IMG/VR virus record: IMGVR_UViG_3300020421_000135
Location: 1 to 24,469 of that record
Origin: a virus
Length of the DNA: 24,469 nt
Direction: 5' to 3' (one strand)
The notes beneath the pieces were generated by a model, which saw only the letters and a program-made list of their open reading frames with translations, had not been told where the DNA came from and did not search any database. Position numbers and translations under genes: made by a program. Positions 20,622 through 23,697 of this stretch are shown here, in pieces (positions within the stretch are counted from its first letter, which is position 1; every line of letters starts with the position of its first letter).

Positions 20622-21179
20622 ATGAAAGATTTTATTGGGTTATTCCCAGAAGCACTAGCACCTGAACATTGTGAGATGATCATCAATGAGATGGAAGACA
20701 ATGAGAAGTATGATTCAGTAGATTTAAAGCAACAACACGGTGGTCCTAGTCATCGTACTGGTACTGCATACTTTGTACGTGCGAATGATGGTTGGGATCT
20801 CACGCGAAATCTTATCAATCAAGCACTGTCTAAATGTGTACAGGCATACATTGAAGAGTATCCCACAATGAATGTCAATTGTGCATCTCATACAATTAAA
20901 CTACAGAAATTAGAACCTGGTGAAGGATTTCATGACTGGCATTGTGAAGCATTTAATTACTCATCATGCCATCGTGTGTTGTTTTGGATGATCTATCTTA
21001 ATACTACCAAGGAAGGTGAAGGTACAACAGAATGGATCAATCAAGGAGTACGAATACAACCAGAGCAAGGCAAGATCGTAATCTGCCCATCTGGATTCAC
21101 CCATACTCATCGGGGAAACCCATCATACCATGACAAGAAGTATATTGCAACAGGTTGGTACACCCATCAAGGAGCATGA
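20622..21179 (+). CDS. 2OG-Fe(II) oxygenase-like protein (prolyl-hydroxylase type)
   Basis: A 185-residue protein with the double-stranded beta-helix layout of the 2OG-Fe(II) oxygenase superfamily (PF13640-like). The facial-triad region is GEGFHDWHCEAFNYSS, where H107-C-E109 is the likely metal pair (Glu in place of the usual Asp). Strands follow (HRVLFWMIYLNTTKEGEGTT), then a turn VRIQPEQGKIVICPSGFTHT with the distal His at 161 or 163. KYIATGWY closes the fold, where a basic residue should bind 2OG. The N-terminal 90 residues form the helical support region. The substrate is unknown. It is followed by a second oxygenase gene with an ATGA overlap, so they are co-translated. Confidence 0.75.
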   Translation: MKDFIGLFPEALAPEHCEMIINEMEDNEKYDSVDLKQQHGGPSHRTGTAYFVRANDGWDLTRNLINQALSKCVQAYIEEYPTMNVNCASHTIKLQKLEPGEGFHDWHCEAFNYSSCHRVLFWMIYLNTTKEGEGTTEWINQGVRIQPEQGKIVICPSGFTHTHRGNPSYHDKKYIATGWYTHQGA

Positions 21180-21703
21180 GATACTCACTGTTCCCATCAA
21201 TTGTAATCAGTCAGCAGTTAGACCTGCCCATTAATGATTTGATTGATTATGCATATGATATTTTCTCCACCTCAAAAGGAGTAAAGAAAACGAATAAGCA
21301 TGGATGGCAATCACATCACCTGAATATACCAATACTAGAGGATCATTTCCCTCTTGATATTCCTAATATACAACGACCATTAGTATATCATAAGCAATGG
21401 ATCAACATCTCACCAACAGGAGCATTTAATACGTATCATACACATACAAATAGTGATTACAGTTTTGTATTGTACTTAACTGAAACAACAACACCAATCA
21501 CATTTGTACATCCACATTTACATCTAGGAGCATTTAATCATATACGATCAGTAAAACCCTCTCCACAGGAGACATATGATATACTTCCTAAACCAAATGA
21601 ACTGTTAATCTTCCCAAGTTATCTCCCACATCAAGTAGGAGAAAATACAGGTAATGATGACAGAATATCAATTAGTTGGAATGCATCAATTTCTATGGTA
21701 TAA
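21176..21703 (+). CDS. 2OG-Fe(II) oxygenase-like protein, TIGR02466/PF13759 type, copy 1
   Basis: A 175-residue protein. The start at 21176 (MRYSLFPSIVISQ) overlaps the preceding TGA as ATGA; the frame runs seven codons further upstream. The family pattern is present: an N-terminal LFPS strand, W-Q-S near residue 44, WINISPTGAFNTYHTHTNSD (H88-T-H90 as metal ligands), YSFVLYL, HLGAFN, FPSYLPHQV (distal H152) and RISISWN (R163, predicted to contact 2OG). It aligns along its length with the product at 22399. The substrate is unknown. A strong promoter overlaps its last codons. Confidence 0.78.
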   Translation: MRYSLFPSIVISQQLDLPINDLIDYAYDIFSTSKGVKKTNKHGWQSHHLNIPILEDHFPLDIPNIQRPLVYHKQWINISPTGAFNTYHTHTNSDYSFVLYLTETTTPITFVHPHLHLGAFNHIRSVKPSPQETYDILPKPNELLIFPSYLPHQVGENTGNDDRISISWNASISMV

Positions 21704-21704
21704 T
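21676..21704 (+). promoter_or_regulatory. Near-consensus promoter TTGGAA-17-TATAAT with extended -10
   Basis: TTGGAA (21676-21681), a 17-base spacer and a perfect TATAAT (21699-21704) preceded by TG plus one base. It lies across the end of the oxygenase gene. The expected start is about 21711, 17 bases before the ATG at 21728, and it heads the operon 21728-23013. Confidence 0.82.
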
Positions 21705-21727
21705 TAGTACAATTGCTCCTATCATAA

Positions 21728-21841
21728 ATGAAACTATCACTATCAGAACTAGATAGATTGCTTGCTGTATTAAAGAAGGATACAGATGCATCATTAATTA
21801 ATAAGATAAACTCATACAGGTATCGACTCACTAATCCATGA
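21728..21841 (+). CDS. Mini-protein, helical hairpin type
   Basis: A 37-residue frame, MKLSLSELDRLLAVLKKDTD followed by ASLINKINSYRYRLTNP. It reads as two amphipathic helices joined by a polar turn. Support is its place directly after the strong promoter at 21676 and the ATGA overlap of its stop with the next start. It shares the pattern MK-h-x-L-[st]-x-x-[eq] with the products at 21942 and 22202. Function unknown. Confidence 0.65.
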   Translation: MKLSLSELDRLLAVLKKDTDASLINKINSYRYRLTNP

Positions 21842-21942
21842 TCTCACCAACACTACTATACAAAATATACAATAGAGCAAGACAATCAGGACAACGAGTC
21901 AAACCAATAAGAACTCATTACAATGCAAACACATTTGGATAA
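21838..21942 (+). CDS. Mini-protein, basic
   Basis: A 34-residue basic frame (MISPTLLYKIYNRARQSGQR, then VKPIRTHYNANTFG). It starts at an ATGA overlap and its TAA overlaps the next ATG (TAATG), so both ends are coupled to neighbours. This is the main reason to accept so short a gene. The Arg/Lys/Tyr content suggests nucleic-acid or membrane-surface contact, but no family is recognised. Confidence 0.55.
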   Translation: MISPTLLYKIYNRARQSGQRVKPIRTHYNANTFG

Positions 21943-22205
21943 TGAAACAGATTGAATTAACAGACAAACAAATCAATACTCTCATTGATTTAATAGATTC
22001 AGAACAGTATGCTGTTGTTGATGATAATTTAAATGAAGAGTTAAATGAATTGAAACGTGTATTAAGGAATAGAGGTAGGACGTATTCCACAATGAATGAG
22101 GATACTGAATACACATCACGTCATGCATACACACCATCATATGAAGAGTATGGTAGAGAGATGGTAGAAAAACATACACCTATGCCATCTAATTATCCAA
22201 AATGA
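21942..22205 (+). CDS. Small helical protein
   Basis: An 87-residue protein starting at a TAATG overlap. The first 45 residues form a helical hairpin (MKQIELTDKQINTLIDLIDS; NEELNELKRVLRNRG), similar in layout to the products at 21728 and 22202. The C-terminal half is polar, Tyr/Glu/Thr-rich and probably disordered (EDTEYTSRHAYTPSYEEYGR). Function unknown. Its stop overlaps the next ATG (ATGA). Confidence 0.72.
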   Translation: MKQIELTDKQINTLIDLIDSEQYAVVDDNLNEELNELKRVLRNRGRTYSTMNEDTEYTSRHAYTPSYEEYGREMVEKHTPMPSNYPK

Positions 22206-22399
22206 AGATAGAATTGAATGATGAACAGTTACTATGTCTACAAGTATGTGTACAAAATGCACCAACACCATATGACATAGGTAGTAAGAAACCCATTAGA
22301 GAAAGTATACAGAAGGTGATAGGTATTCCACCTGAGATACACGTAGAACCATTAGCAATGCCTAAGTATGATCTCACCAGATTTGGGATACATGATTGA
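22202..22399 (+). CDS. Small protein
   Basis: A 65-residue protein starting at an ATGA overlap. It begins MKIELNDEQLLCLQVCVQNA, the same MK-h-x-L-x-x-x-Q layout as the neighbouring mini-proteins, followed by a short helix (IRESIQKVIGIP) and a Pro-rich tail ending RFGIHD. Function unknown. Its TGA overlaps the ATG of the second TIGR02466-type oxygenase, so the chain of small genes is translationally coupled to that enzyme. Confidence 0.72.
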   Translation: MKIELNDEQLLCLQVCVQNAPTPYDIGSKKPIRESIQKVIGIPPEIHVEPLAMPKYDLTRFGIHD

Positions 22400-23013
22400 T
22401 GTATAATATTATTCCCCTATTCCCAACATTACTCTATCACAATAACTATGACATTAACATAGAAGAACTGATAAAGTATTGTTATGAACAGAAAGAACTG
22501 GATAAGTCATCAAAGTATCCCCAAAGATCAGGACAAGGTAGTTGGCAATCATTATACTTGAATACACAATTACTTAATCCACTAAAGGAAAAAGTAAATG
22601 GTATACTAAAGGAAGTATGTAGAAGACCTACGTTTCATCATCCAGATTGGGTTAACATTAATCCACCAGGTGCAACCAATGTTTATCATACACATCCTAA
22701 TAGTGATTATAGTTGTGTATACTATCTAAAGAATGAAGCAGACACAGGTATAATGTTTGTTAATCCAATGATGCATCTAGGTGCATTTAATACAACAACA
22801 TTTACTAACAAGAAGTTAATAGATGATACACGTGCATCACCTCAGTATAAGGTAGTACCTAAGAGAGGTGATTTGTTAATGTTTCCAGCATACTTACCAC
22901 ACTGGGTAGAAAAGAATGAAGGAACAGAAGATAGGTTGACCATAGCATGGAACATTTCAATGCAAATTAACCCACAACAAGACAAGATTGGACCTTTCGA
23001 GTTGTATTGGTAG
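22399..23013 (+). CDS. 2OG-Fe(II) oxygenase-like protein, TIGR02466/PF13759 type, copy 2
   Basis: A 204-residue protein whose ATG at 22399 overlaps the preceding stop (TGATG); a TTG one codon earlier is unlikely. It is the paralogue of the product at 21176: shared N-terminal LFPT strand, WQS, WVNINPPGATNVYHTHPNSD (H97-T-H99), YSCVYYL, HLGAFN, FPAYLPHWV (H168) and RLTIAWN (R179). It is about 30 residues longer, through an insertion near residues 132-150 and a C-terminal tail ending FELYW. The conserved ligands suggest an active enzyme; the substrate is unknown. It ends the operon from 21728 and is followed by the origin-like intergenic region. Confidence 0.8.
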   Translation: MYNIIPLFPTLLYHNNYDINIEELIKYCYEQKELDKSSKYPQRSGQGSWQSLYLNTQLLNPLKEKVNGILKEVCRRPTFHHPDWVNINPPGATNVYHTHPNSDYSCVYYLKNEADTGIMFVNPMMHLGAFNTTTFTNKKLIDDTRASPQYKVVPKRGDLLMFPAYLPHWVEKNEGTEDRLTIAWNISMQINPQQDKIGPFELYW

Positions 23014-23033
23014 TGATACACATATGGTACAAG

Positions 23034-23052
23034 GATACTACCCTATAGTATC
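23034..23052 (+). repeat. Hairpin GATACTA-5-TAGTATC
   Basis: A perfect 7-bp stem (23034-23040 with 23046-23052) and a five-base loop lie 20 bases after the oxygenase stop. No T-run follows, so it is not a clear intrinsic terminator; it could stabilise the 3' end of the operon message. Confidence 0.5.
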
Positions 23053-23057
23053 ATAGT

Positions 23058-23147
23058 CCGCACATTGGTGTCACAGGGTTTTCCACAGTTTTGTTGTGAG
23101 TTGTGGAAAACTTTATAAAGGTTTAATTAAATGTAGGTAATGTGCGG
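23058..23147. repeat. 9-bp inverted repeat CCGCACATT / AATGTGCGG
   Basis: CCGCACATT (23058-23066) and AATGTGCGG (23139-23147) are exact reverse complements, 72 bases apart. They enclose the first TTTTCCACA inverted pair, giving a nested arrangement. Confidence 0.6.
23079..23110. repeat. Inverted pair of DnaA-box-like TTTTCCACA sites (pair 1)
   Basis: TTTTCCACA (23079-23087) and TGTGGAAAA (23102-23110) face each other with 14 bases between them. Both match the cyanobacterial DnaA-box form exactly and differ from the E. coli R-box TTATCCACA at one base. Confidence 0.65.
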
Positions 23148-23233
23148 TGGAGTTGTTACCTTAGCCCGCAACCTATCGTTTGTCAAGTCGGTGTGTGCCA
23201 GTCCTCAAAGTGTCCCCAAAACCCCACAAACAC

Positions 23234-23262
23234 TTGCAAAATCTTTGAGATCGGGTTATAAT
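23234..23262 (+). promoter_or_regulatory. Sigma70-type promoter TTGCAA-17-TATAAT inside the origin-like region
   Basis: TTGCAA (23234-23239), an ideal 17-base spacer and a perfect TATAAT (23257-23262). The expected start, about 23269, coincides with an ATG and lies about 190 bases before the next good gene. The transcript would run through the long inverted repeat and the AT-rich tract, suggesting a structured leader, a non-coding RNA or a replication primer. Confidence 0.72.
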
Positions 23263-23315
23263 AATACCATGGATCTCCAAAGAACTCGAAGGGTCACTCG
23301 GTTGACTACTTTGCG

Positions 23316-23416
23316 ACTTTTTGAGTTTTTTGGGATTCGCACTTTTCCACAACCTGTGGAAAACCCAGAAAATCAGAAAGTTTAACTTTTAAGAAACCCA
23401 AAAAACTCAAAAAAGT
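23316..23416. repeat. Long imperfect inverted repeat flanking DnaA-box pair 2
   Basis: The 19-base arm at 23316-23334 and the 20-base arm at 23397-23416 are reverse complements apart from one base in an A/T run. Between them lie 62 bases that include the second TTTTCCACA pair. In RNA this would give a long stem closed by a smaller hairpin. Confidence 0.7.
23343..23363. repeat. Inverted pair of DnaA-box-like TTTTCCACA sites (pair 2)
   Basis: TTTTCCACA (23343-23351), three bases, TGTGGAAAA (23355-23363): a perfect 9-bp palindromic pair. It has the same orientation as pair 1 but a much shorter spacer. Confidence 0.65.
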
Positions 23417-23428
23417 TAAATTTTAAGA
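23377..23428. repeat. AT-rich imperfect direct repeat
   Basis: An 18-base unit at 23377-23394 and a 17-base unit at 23412-23428 share AAAGTT...TTTTAAGA, differing by one base lost and one changed. They lie in the most AT-rich part of the region, a candidate DNA-unwinding element. Confidence 0.5.
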
Positions 23429-23460
23429 TTTTTCATTTAATCTTTAACCACACCCTGCAT

Positions 23461-23697
23461 ATGTTTGTGAAAACTTACGAAAATCTTAATAGTTCAGCTA
23501 TTAACACTCTAAAAGTTGATGAAGATGTAGTATTTGTTACATATCAAAGTAATATTGACAAAGAATATGCTTTTAAGTGTGATAATACACAAGAATTCAA
23601 TGATAAAGTGTCAAATACACTTAAAACTAAAGAATCCATCGGTAAACTAGTTAATTCTAGCATAAAAGAAGGCACTTTAGTTGATATCACTAAATAA
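23461..23697 (+). CDS. KTSC-domain-like protein
   Basis: A 78-residue protein (MFVKTYENLNSSAINTLKVD). The pattern N-S-S-x-I near the start, a strand VVFVTYQS, an aromatic strand EYAFKC, a helix EFNDKVSNTLKT and then ESIGKLVNSSIKEGTLVDI is like the KTSC domain (PF13619). That small fold is found in phages, often fused to or near DNA- and RNA-modifying proteins; its function is not settled. It is the first gene after the origin-like region. No close promoter is visible other than the one at 23234, which would give a long structured leader. The promoter of the next gene overlaps its 3' end. Confidence 0.7.
   Translation: MFVKTYENLNSSAINTLKVDEDVVFVTYQSNIDKEYAFKCDNTQEFNDKVSNTLKTKESIGKLVNSSIKEGTLVDITK

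Follow-up and report, generated by a model that had tools for sequence, protein, structure and literature searches.

Cyanobacterial-type DnaA boxes in a conserved single-copy module of T4-like cyanophages: a possible replication origin or initiation-control region

Some T4-like cyanophages carry DnaA-type boxes of stringent sequence in a single-copy, non-coding module whose elements follow a fixed order. We identified this module at positions 23014–23460 of a 24,469-nt viral sequence (the whole stretch analysed, hereafter the window), where it fills a gap, conserved in relatives, that is bounded by a 2OG-Fe(II) oxygenase-like gene on one side and the gene for a 78-aa protein on the other. We propose that the region may serve T4-like cyanophages as a replication origin or initiation-control region, with host DnaA recruited in some lineages. 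We put the probability of this reading at roughly 0.45, and the choice between it and a transcription control region rests on the architecture of the module.

The first-pass annotation reported four perfect copies of TTTTCCACA, arranged as two inverted pairs within 285 bp, and our search found all of them where they had been placed. Box 1 (23079–23087, plus strand) and box 2 (23102–23110, minus strand) are separated by 14 bp; box 3 (23343–23351, plus strand) and box 4 (23355–23363, minus strand) are separated by 3 bp. Each is an exact match to the 9-mer, and one pair repeats the other in inverted orientation over 16 nt. No further perfect copy was present in the 24,469 bases searched, in agreement with the by-eye impression of the annotation. 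Dinucleotide shuffles of the window (n = 1,000) contained a mean of 0.47 copies, and neither four copies within 300 bp nor an inverted pair with a 2–20-bp gap occurred in any of the 1,000. The window contains several close copies of the exact 9-mer, as expected for a cyanobacterial DnaA box cluster. An 81-aa ORF at 23140–23385 is unsupported by relatives, so the stretch looks gene-free, as the annotation had described it. A 38-aa reading frame at 23269 was dropped because, read by eye, it is not kept in relatives. No tRNA genes were found in the window. A group of three neighbouring 2OG-Fe(II) oxygenase-like genes (20622–23013) directly precedes the module.

The sequence TTTTCCACA is the published cyanobacterial DnaA box, and in vitro DnaA binding has been reported for Cyanothece and Anabaena (PMC4674748). 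Clusters of exact TTTTCCACA occur in intergenic DNA at oriC of Synechococcus elongatus, Anabaena 7120 and Cyanothece 51142 (PMC4674748, PMC5987646). The phage module shares this arrangement but belongs to a lytic phage, has inverted pairs with preferred gaps, and places its boxes beside a phage-specific core rather than beside dnaN. Searching six host genomes gave one Bac_DnaA match in each, and the signature FGGKDHTTVMYA, which we take to be the part of host DnaA that binds the box, could be read in all six. Of 16 host genomes from the genus of WH7803, 11 also contain an inverted pair, TTTTCCACA-N35-TGTGGAAAA, whose gap is exactly 35 bp (WH7803 1819368–1819420, which is L255 1869–1921; also G026, G032–G034, G036, G039–G042 and G044). 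The pair was intergenic in the loci read, with a varied spacer, and one host genome has an additional TTTTCCACA pair with a gap of 26. We considered the N35 pair as a candidate host origin and rejected it for WH7803, where sampled GC skew reverses sign in the interval from 2.26 to 0.1 Mb, around dnaN, rather than at 1.82 Mb. This marine Synechococcus pair resembles the phage pairs in its box, its inverted arrangement and its spacing, as gaps of 4, 14 and 35 would lie close to mutual helical phase. It differs in lying on a host chromosome, far from the skew-defined origin of WH7803, and in lacking the phage core.

The elements of the module are ordered as boxes or another inverted repeat, AT tract, core, palindrome and sigma-70 promoter. 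The AT-rich stretch TTTATAAAGGTTTAATTAAATG (23112–23133) recurs between the boxes and the core in relatives and, read by eye, resembles a phage late promoter. The core, defined by alignment and a profile model, spans 64 positions (23135–23198, plus strand) and includes the motif CTTAG-N17-GTCAAG (23160–23187). This motif is present in gap loci, judged where upstream sequence suffices, as well as in many contigs identified through their box pairs, independently of the core. An operator-like inverted repeat, TGTGCCA...TGTCCCCA (23194–23217), was recognized by eye; it is imperfect in the window and reads TGTGCCA...TGGCACA in relatives, and we detected no RNA covariation at this repeat. A rightward sigma-70 promoter, TTGCAA-N17-TATAAT (23234–23262, plus strand), is followed by a T-rich/A-rich tract with inverted and direct repeats (23318–23460), a possible unwinding element. 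The 78-aa gene (23461–23697, plus strand) belongs to phrog_4357, and its counterpart in S-MbCM7 is annotated T4-GC_805. The repeats and the promoter listed in the first-pass annotation are present, with inverted repeats at 23318–23338 and 23393–23413 and a 34-nt direct repeat at 23359–23426. The promoter, called strong there, matches 10 of 12 consensus positions, but promoter-like sites in the stretch are no commoner than in shuffles. The T-rich tract after the promoter is a feature of the window's lineage and ranks among the window's three least stable 60-bp sites; the module tract is among the 3–10 least stable such sites of S-MbCM7 and S-PM2. Arrays of 10–11-bp repeats lie beyond the AT stretch, upstream of the core, in some relatives, and no such array was found in the window itself.

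We compared the window with other phages that share the gap. The 78-aa protein is encoded downstream in 27 viral contigs, and S-PM2, S-MbCM7, S-WAM2, S-B43 and Sf-CH1b have the same gap arrangement. Where the contigs extend across it, the gap is conserved; the boxes, however, are not. The full set of four, with both pairs, occurs in 4 of the 27 contigs (L010, L011, L025 and L027), and one more (L022) has three, consisting of the upstream pair and a third box without the downstream pair. S-PM2 has three boxes at the corresponding place; two tRNA genes annotated over its boxes and core (L251 2678–2834) were not reproduced by ARAGORN. The remaining gap relatives carry other inverted repeats where the boxes would be, often of the ATTGAGAATCAAT type. 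Two or three copies of this repeat lie upstream of the core in the box-less contigs L009, L014, L340, L361, L368, L370 and others.

We searched 15 complete cyanophage genomes with a profile of the core's 64 positions, built from 32 examples. In 12 of them (10 strongly, 2 weakly) it gave one credible match, as for a single site per replicon. Several of the matched phages also supplied profile sequences; their match is by construction, but their single-copy state is not. The weak matches were in P-SSM4 and P-HM1, the latter with a second, weaker hit (E 0.017), and P-SSM2, S-SSM7 and S-CRM01 had no match. A CTTAG-N17-GTCAA core occurs in gap loci both with and without boxes. Since boxes are absent in 6 of the 12 isolates that have the core, and most near relatives of the window carry other repeats, the boxes are an exchangeable part.

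Cores found without reference to boxes provided a measure of box enrichment. A perfect box lies within 200 nt upstream of 53 of 91 such cores, comprising 13 of 38 in one box-blind set and 40 of 53 in another, 12 contigs of which were already known from the box scan. The conservation asked for by the first-pass annotation is accordingly mixed, with boxes at those 40 of 53 cores of another phage group but four boxes in 4 of 27 and three in 1 of 27 same-gap contigs. Perfect boxes upstream of the cores, 125 in all, are about 276-fold denser than the background of 0.02–0.03 boxes per kb, and one-mismatch variants are rare there, those listed totalling about two dozen. An A hardly ever immediately precedes the box, and in 95% of cases a purine directly follows it. 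The genes after the module differ, with the 78-aa family in one group and another small family in the other.

We scanned viral contigs for TTTTCCACA-N2-20-TGTGGAAAA and found at least 120 stretches. Among the matches listed, the gaps form two main groups of about 3–5 and 12–16, and inverted pairs in other phages most often have a gap of 14. Homologous 3' ends of a single gene in P-SSM7 and its kin contribute to the peak at 14, and because such coding ends partly inflate the gap statistics, the core-based sets were used instead. In many records of 50–182 kb, boxes occur mostly in one place of 0.3–1 kb: all six boxes of a 103-kb record lie within about 1.05 kb, and four of the six in the 182-kb genome of P-SSM7 lie within 660 bp. 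Comparably dense clusters at other places would have spoken against a special site, and none was seen in these genomes. The isolates S-PM2, Syn9, Syn19, S-SSM5, S-CAM22 and P-SSM7 each have a paired or tight cluster. The module sits at 19.2–19.6 kb in S-PM2, which infects Synechococcus WH7803, at 52.5–52.8 kb in Syn9 and at 46.0 kb in P-SSM7. The boxes occupy the same place whether it falls outside a coding end (Syn19, S-SSM5) or apparently inside one (P-SSM7), which argues that the DNA site is kept and not a peptide.

We favor the origin reading because the core has one credible match in each of 12 of 15 genomes (two of them weak), boxes cluster mostly in one place and are about 276-fold enriched near the core with few one-mismatch variants, and the module stays while downstream genes differ between the two phage groups. 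The 10–11-bp arrays in some relatives, the identity of TTTTCCACA with the cyanobacterial DnaA box and the FGGKDHTTVMYA signature of host DnaA point the same way. On this view, the lineage of the window and several further ones would have host DnaA bound to the inverted TTTTCCACA pairs beside the AT-rich stretch, and the adjoining divergent promoter region would supply transcripts. A leftward RNA, reading across the AT tract and the boxes, might melt the duplex or serve as a primer, and the phage-encoded helicase, primase and polymerase would then carry on replication. Box-less relatives would use another repeat, often of the ATTGAGAATCAAT type, at the same place, and the recruiting factor would then be exchangeable. 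The broader idea that T4-like cyanophages share one conserved origin with an exchangeable initiator site, occupied by DnaA boxes in some lineages and by sites for another factor elsewhere, we consider rather unlikely as judged from these comparisons.

The proposed origin has partial parallels in known systems. The T4 origins ori(uvsY) and ori(34) have a promoter next to an unwinding-prone tract and are not known to contain DnaA boxes or such a core. The window, also from a T4-like phage, has a promoter and a candidate tract of this kind, and in sequence features the cyanophage module differs by its DnaA-type boxes and conserved core. Phage and plasmid origins that use host DnaA and iterons, such as that of P1, combine DnaA boxes, an AT tract and repeats in one region. 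The cyanophage module likewise brings together boxes, an AT tract and, in some relatives, 10–11-bp repeats, but we identified no adjacent phage initiator gene, and the window lacks the repeat array.

Several observations weaken the origin reading. GC skew, suggested in the first-pass annotation as a check, does not turn at the module in any of five phage genomes. Boxes are missing from half of the isolates with the core and from most close relatives, and the AT tract shows no unusual instability in P-SSM7, Syn9 and S-CAM22, three of the five complete genomes compared. Only twelve other contigs have a canonical form of the putative leftward promoter, and in most cores it is weak. T4-like phages also carry their own replisome, which weighs against a need for host DnaA. 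The original suggestion of cyanobacterial-type DnaA boxes in an origin-like region is partly supported: it agrees with one cluster per genome, a stringent 9-mer and a constant position beside the core, while skew does not turn and conservation is mixed.

The main rival, which we regard as a real though lesser possibility, is a transcription control region made of divergent promoters, an operator and interchangeable upstream sites. In such a region host DnaA, or some different factor, would bind the boxes to activate or repress phage transcripts, perhaps sensing host replication, and no replication would start there. A sigma-70 site matching at least 10 of 12 positions lies downstream of 35% of unbiased cores, compared with about 5% of control segments, and in the complete-genome modules examined such a promoter could be read by eye on the downstream side of the core. 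This enrichment fits transcriptional control. So do the AT motif separating boxes from core, which looks like a late promoter, the difference of one helical turn between box gaps of about 4 and 14, exchangeable sites at the same position, and the recurrence of operator-like palindromes together with promoters in further contigs. GTCAAG with TGTGCCA...TGGCACA occurs several times per contig in some phages (L105 2220, 3274, 3810 and 8035; L080 7526; L082 11867), and these copies seem to be promoters that share an operator. The minus strand of the core reads TTGAC-N17-TAAG, which is promoter-like. Twelve other contigs, a set chosen for nearby boxes, come near TTGACA-N17-TATAAT on this strand, followed by C(T/C)(A/T)AGA, while most cores match the leftward promoter at only 9 of 12 positions. 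The nearest upstream gene is on the plus strand in annotated relatives, so the minus-strand reading of the core suggests a leftward start without a gene to express, which fits transcriptional control poorly. A single module per genome, followed by differing small genes in the two phage groups, is also unexpected on this account, and repeat arrays with tandem boxes exceed the usual needs of a promoter.

An improbable alternative is a non-coding RNA gene or structured leader with the boxes in its promoter. The conserved block is non-coding, single-copy and flanked by promoters, as such a gene would be, but RNAalifold on 26 sequences of the block predicted no pair and no covariation, and Rfam gave no credible family match. 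Least probable is the DnaA-titrating decoy that the first-pass annotation had also suggested, which would block initiation in the host: several perfect consensus-type boxes do lie close together, but there is only a handful per genome, and a plain decoy requires neither the fixed place nor the fixed spacing by the core.

The literature searched yielded neither a description of DnaA boxes in T4-like cyanophages nor a mapped replication origin for this group, nor any work joining cyanophage, origin of replication and DnaA box. T4-like cyanophages are abundant in the sea, and the conserved single-copy module with its boxes gives an exact place to ask about reliance on the host initiator, for example in S-PM2, Syn9 and P-SSM7. 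It also frames the question of why some lineages swap the box site for another. If the broader idea of a conserved origin with an exchangeable initiator site is true, a phage with its own replisome would be tied to the initiation machinery of its host.
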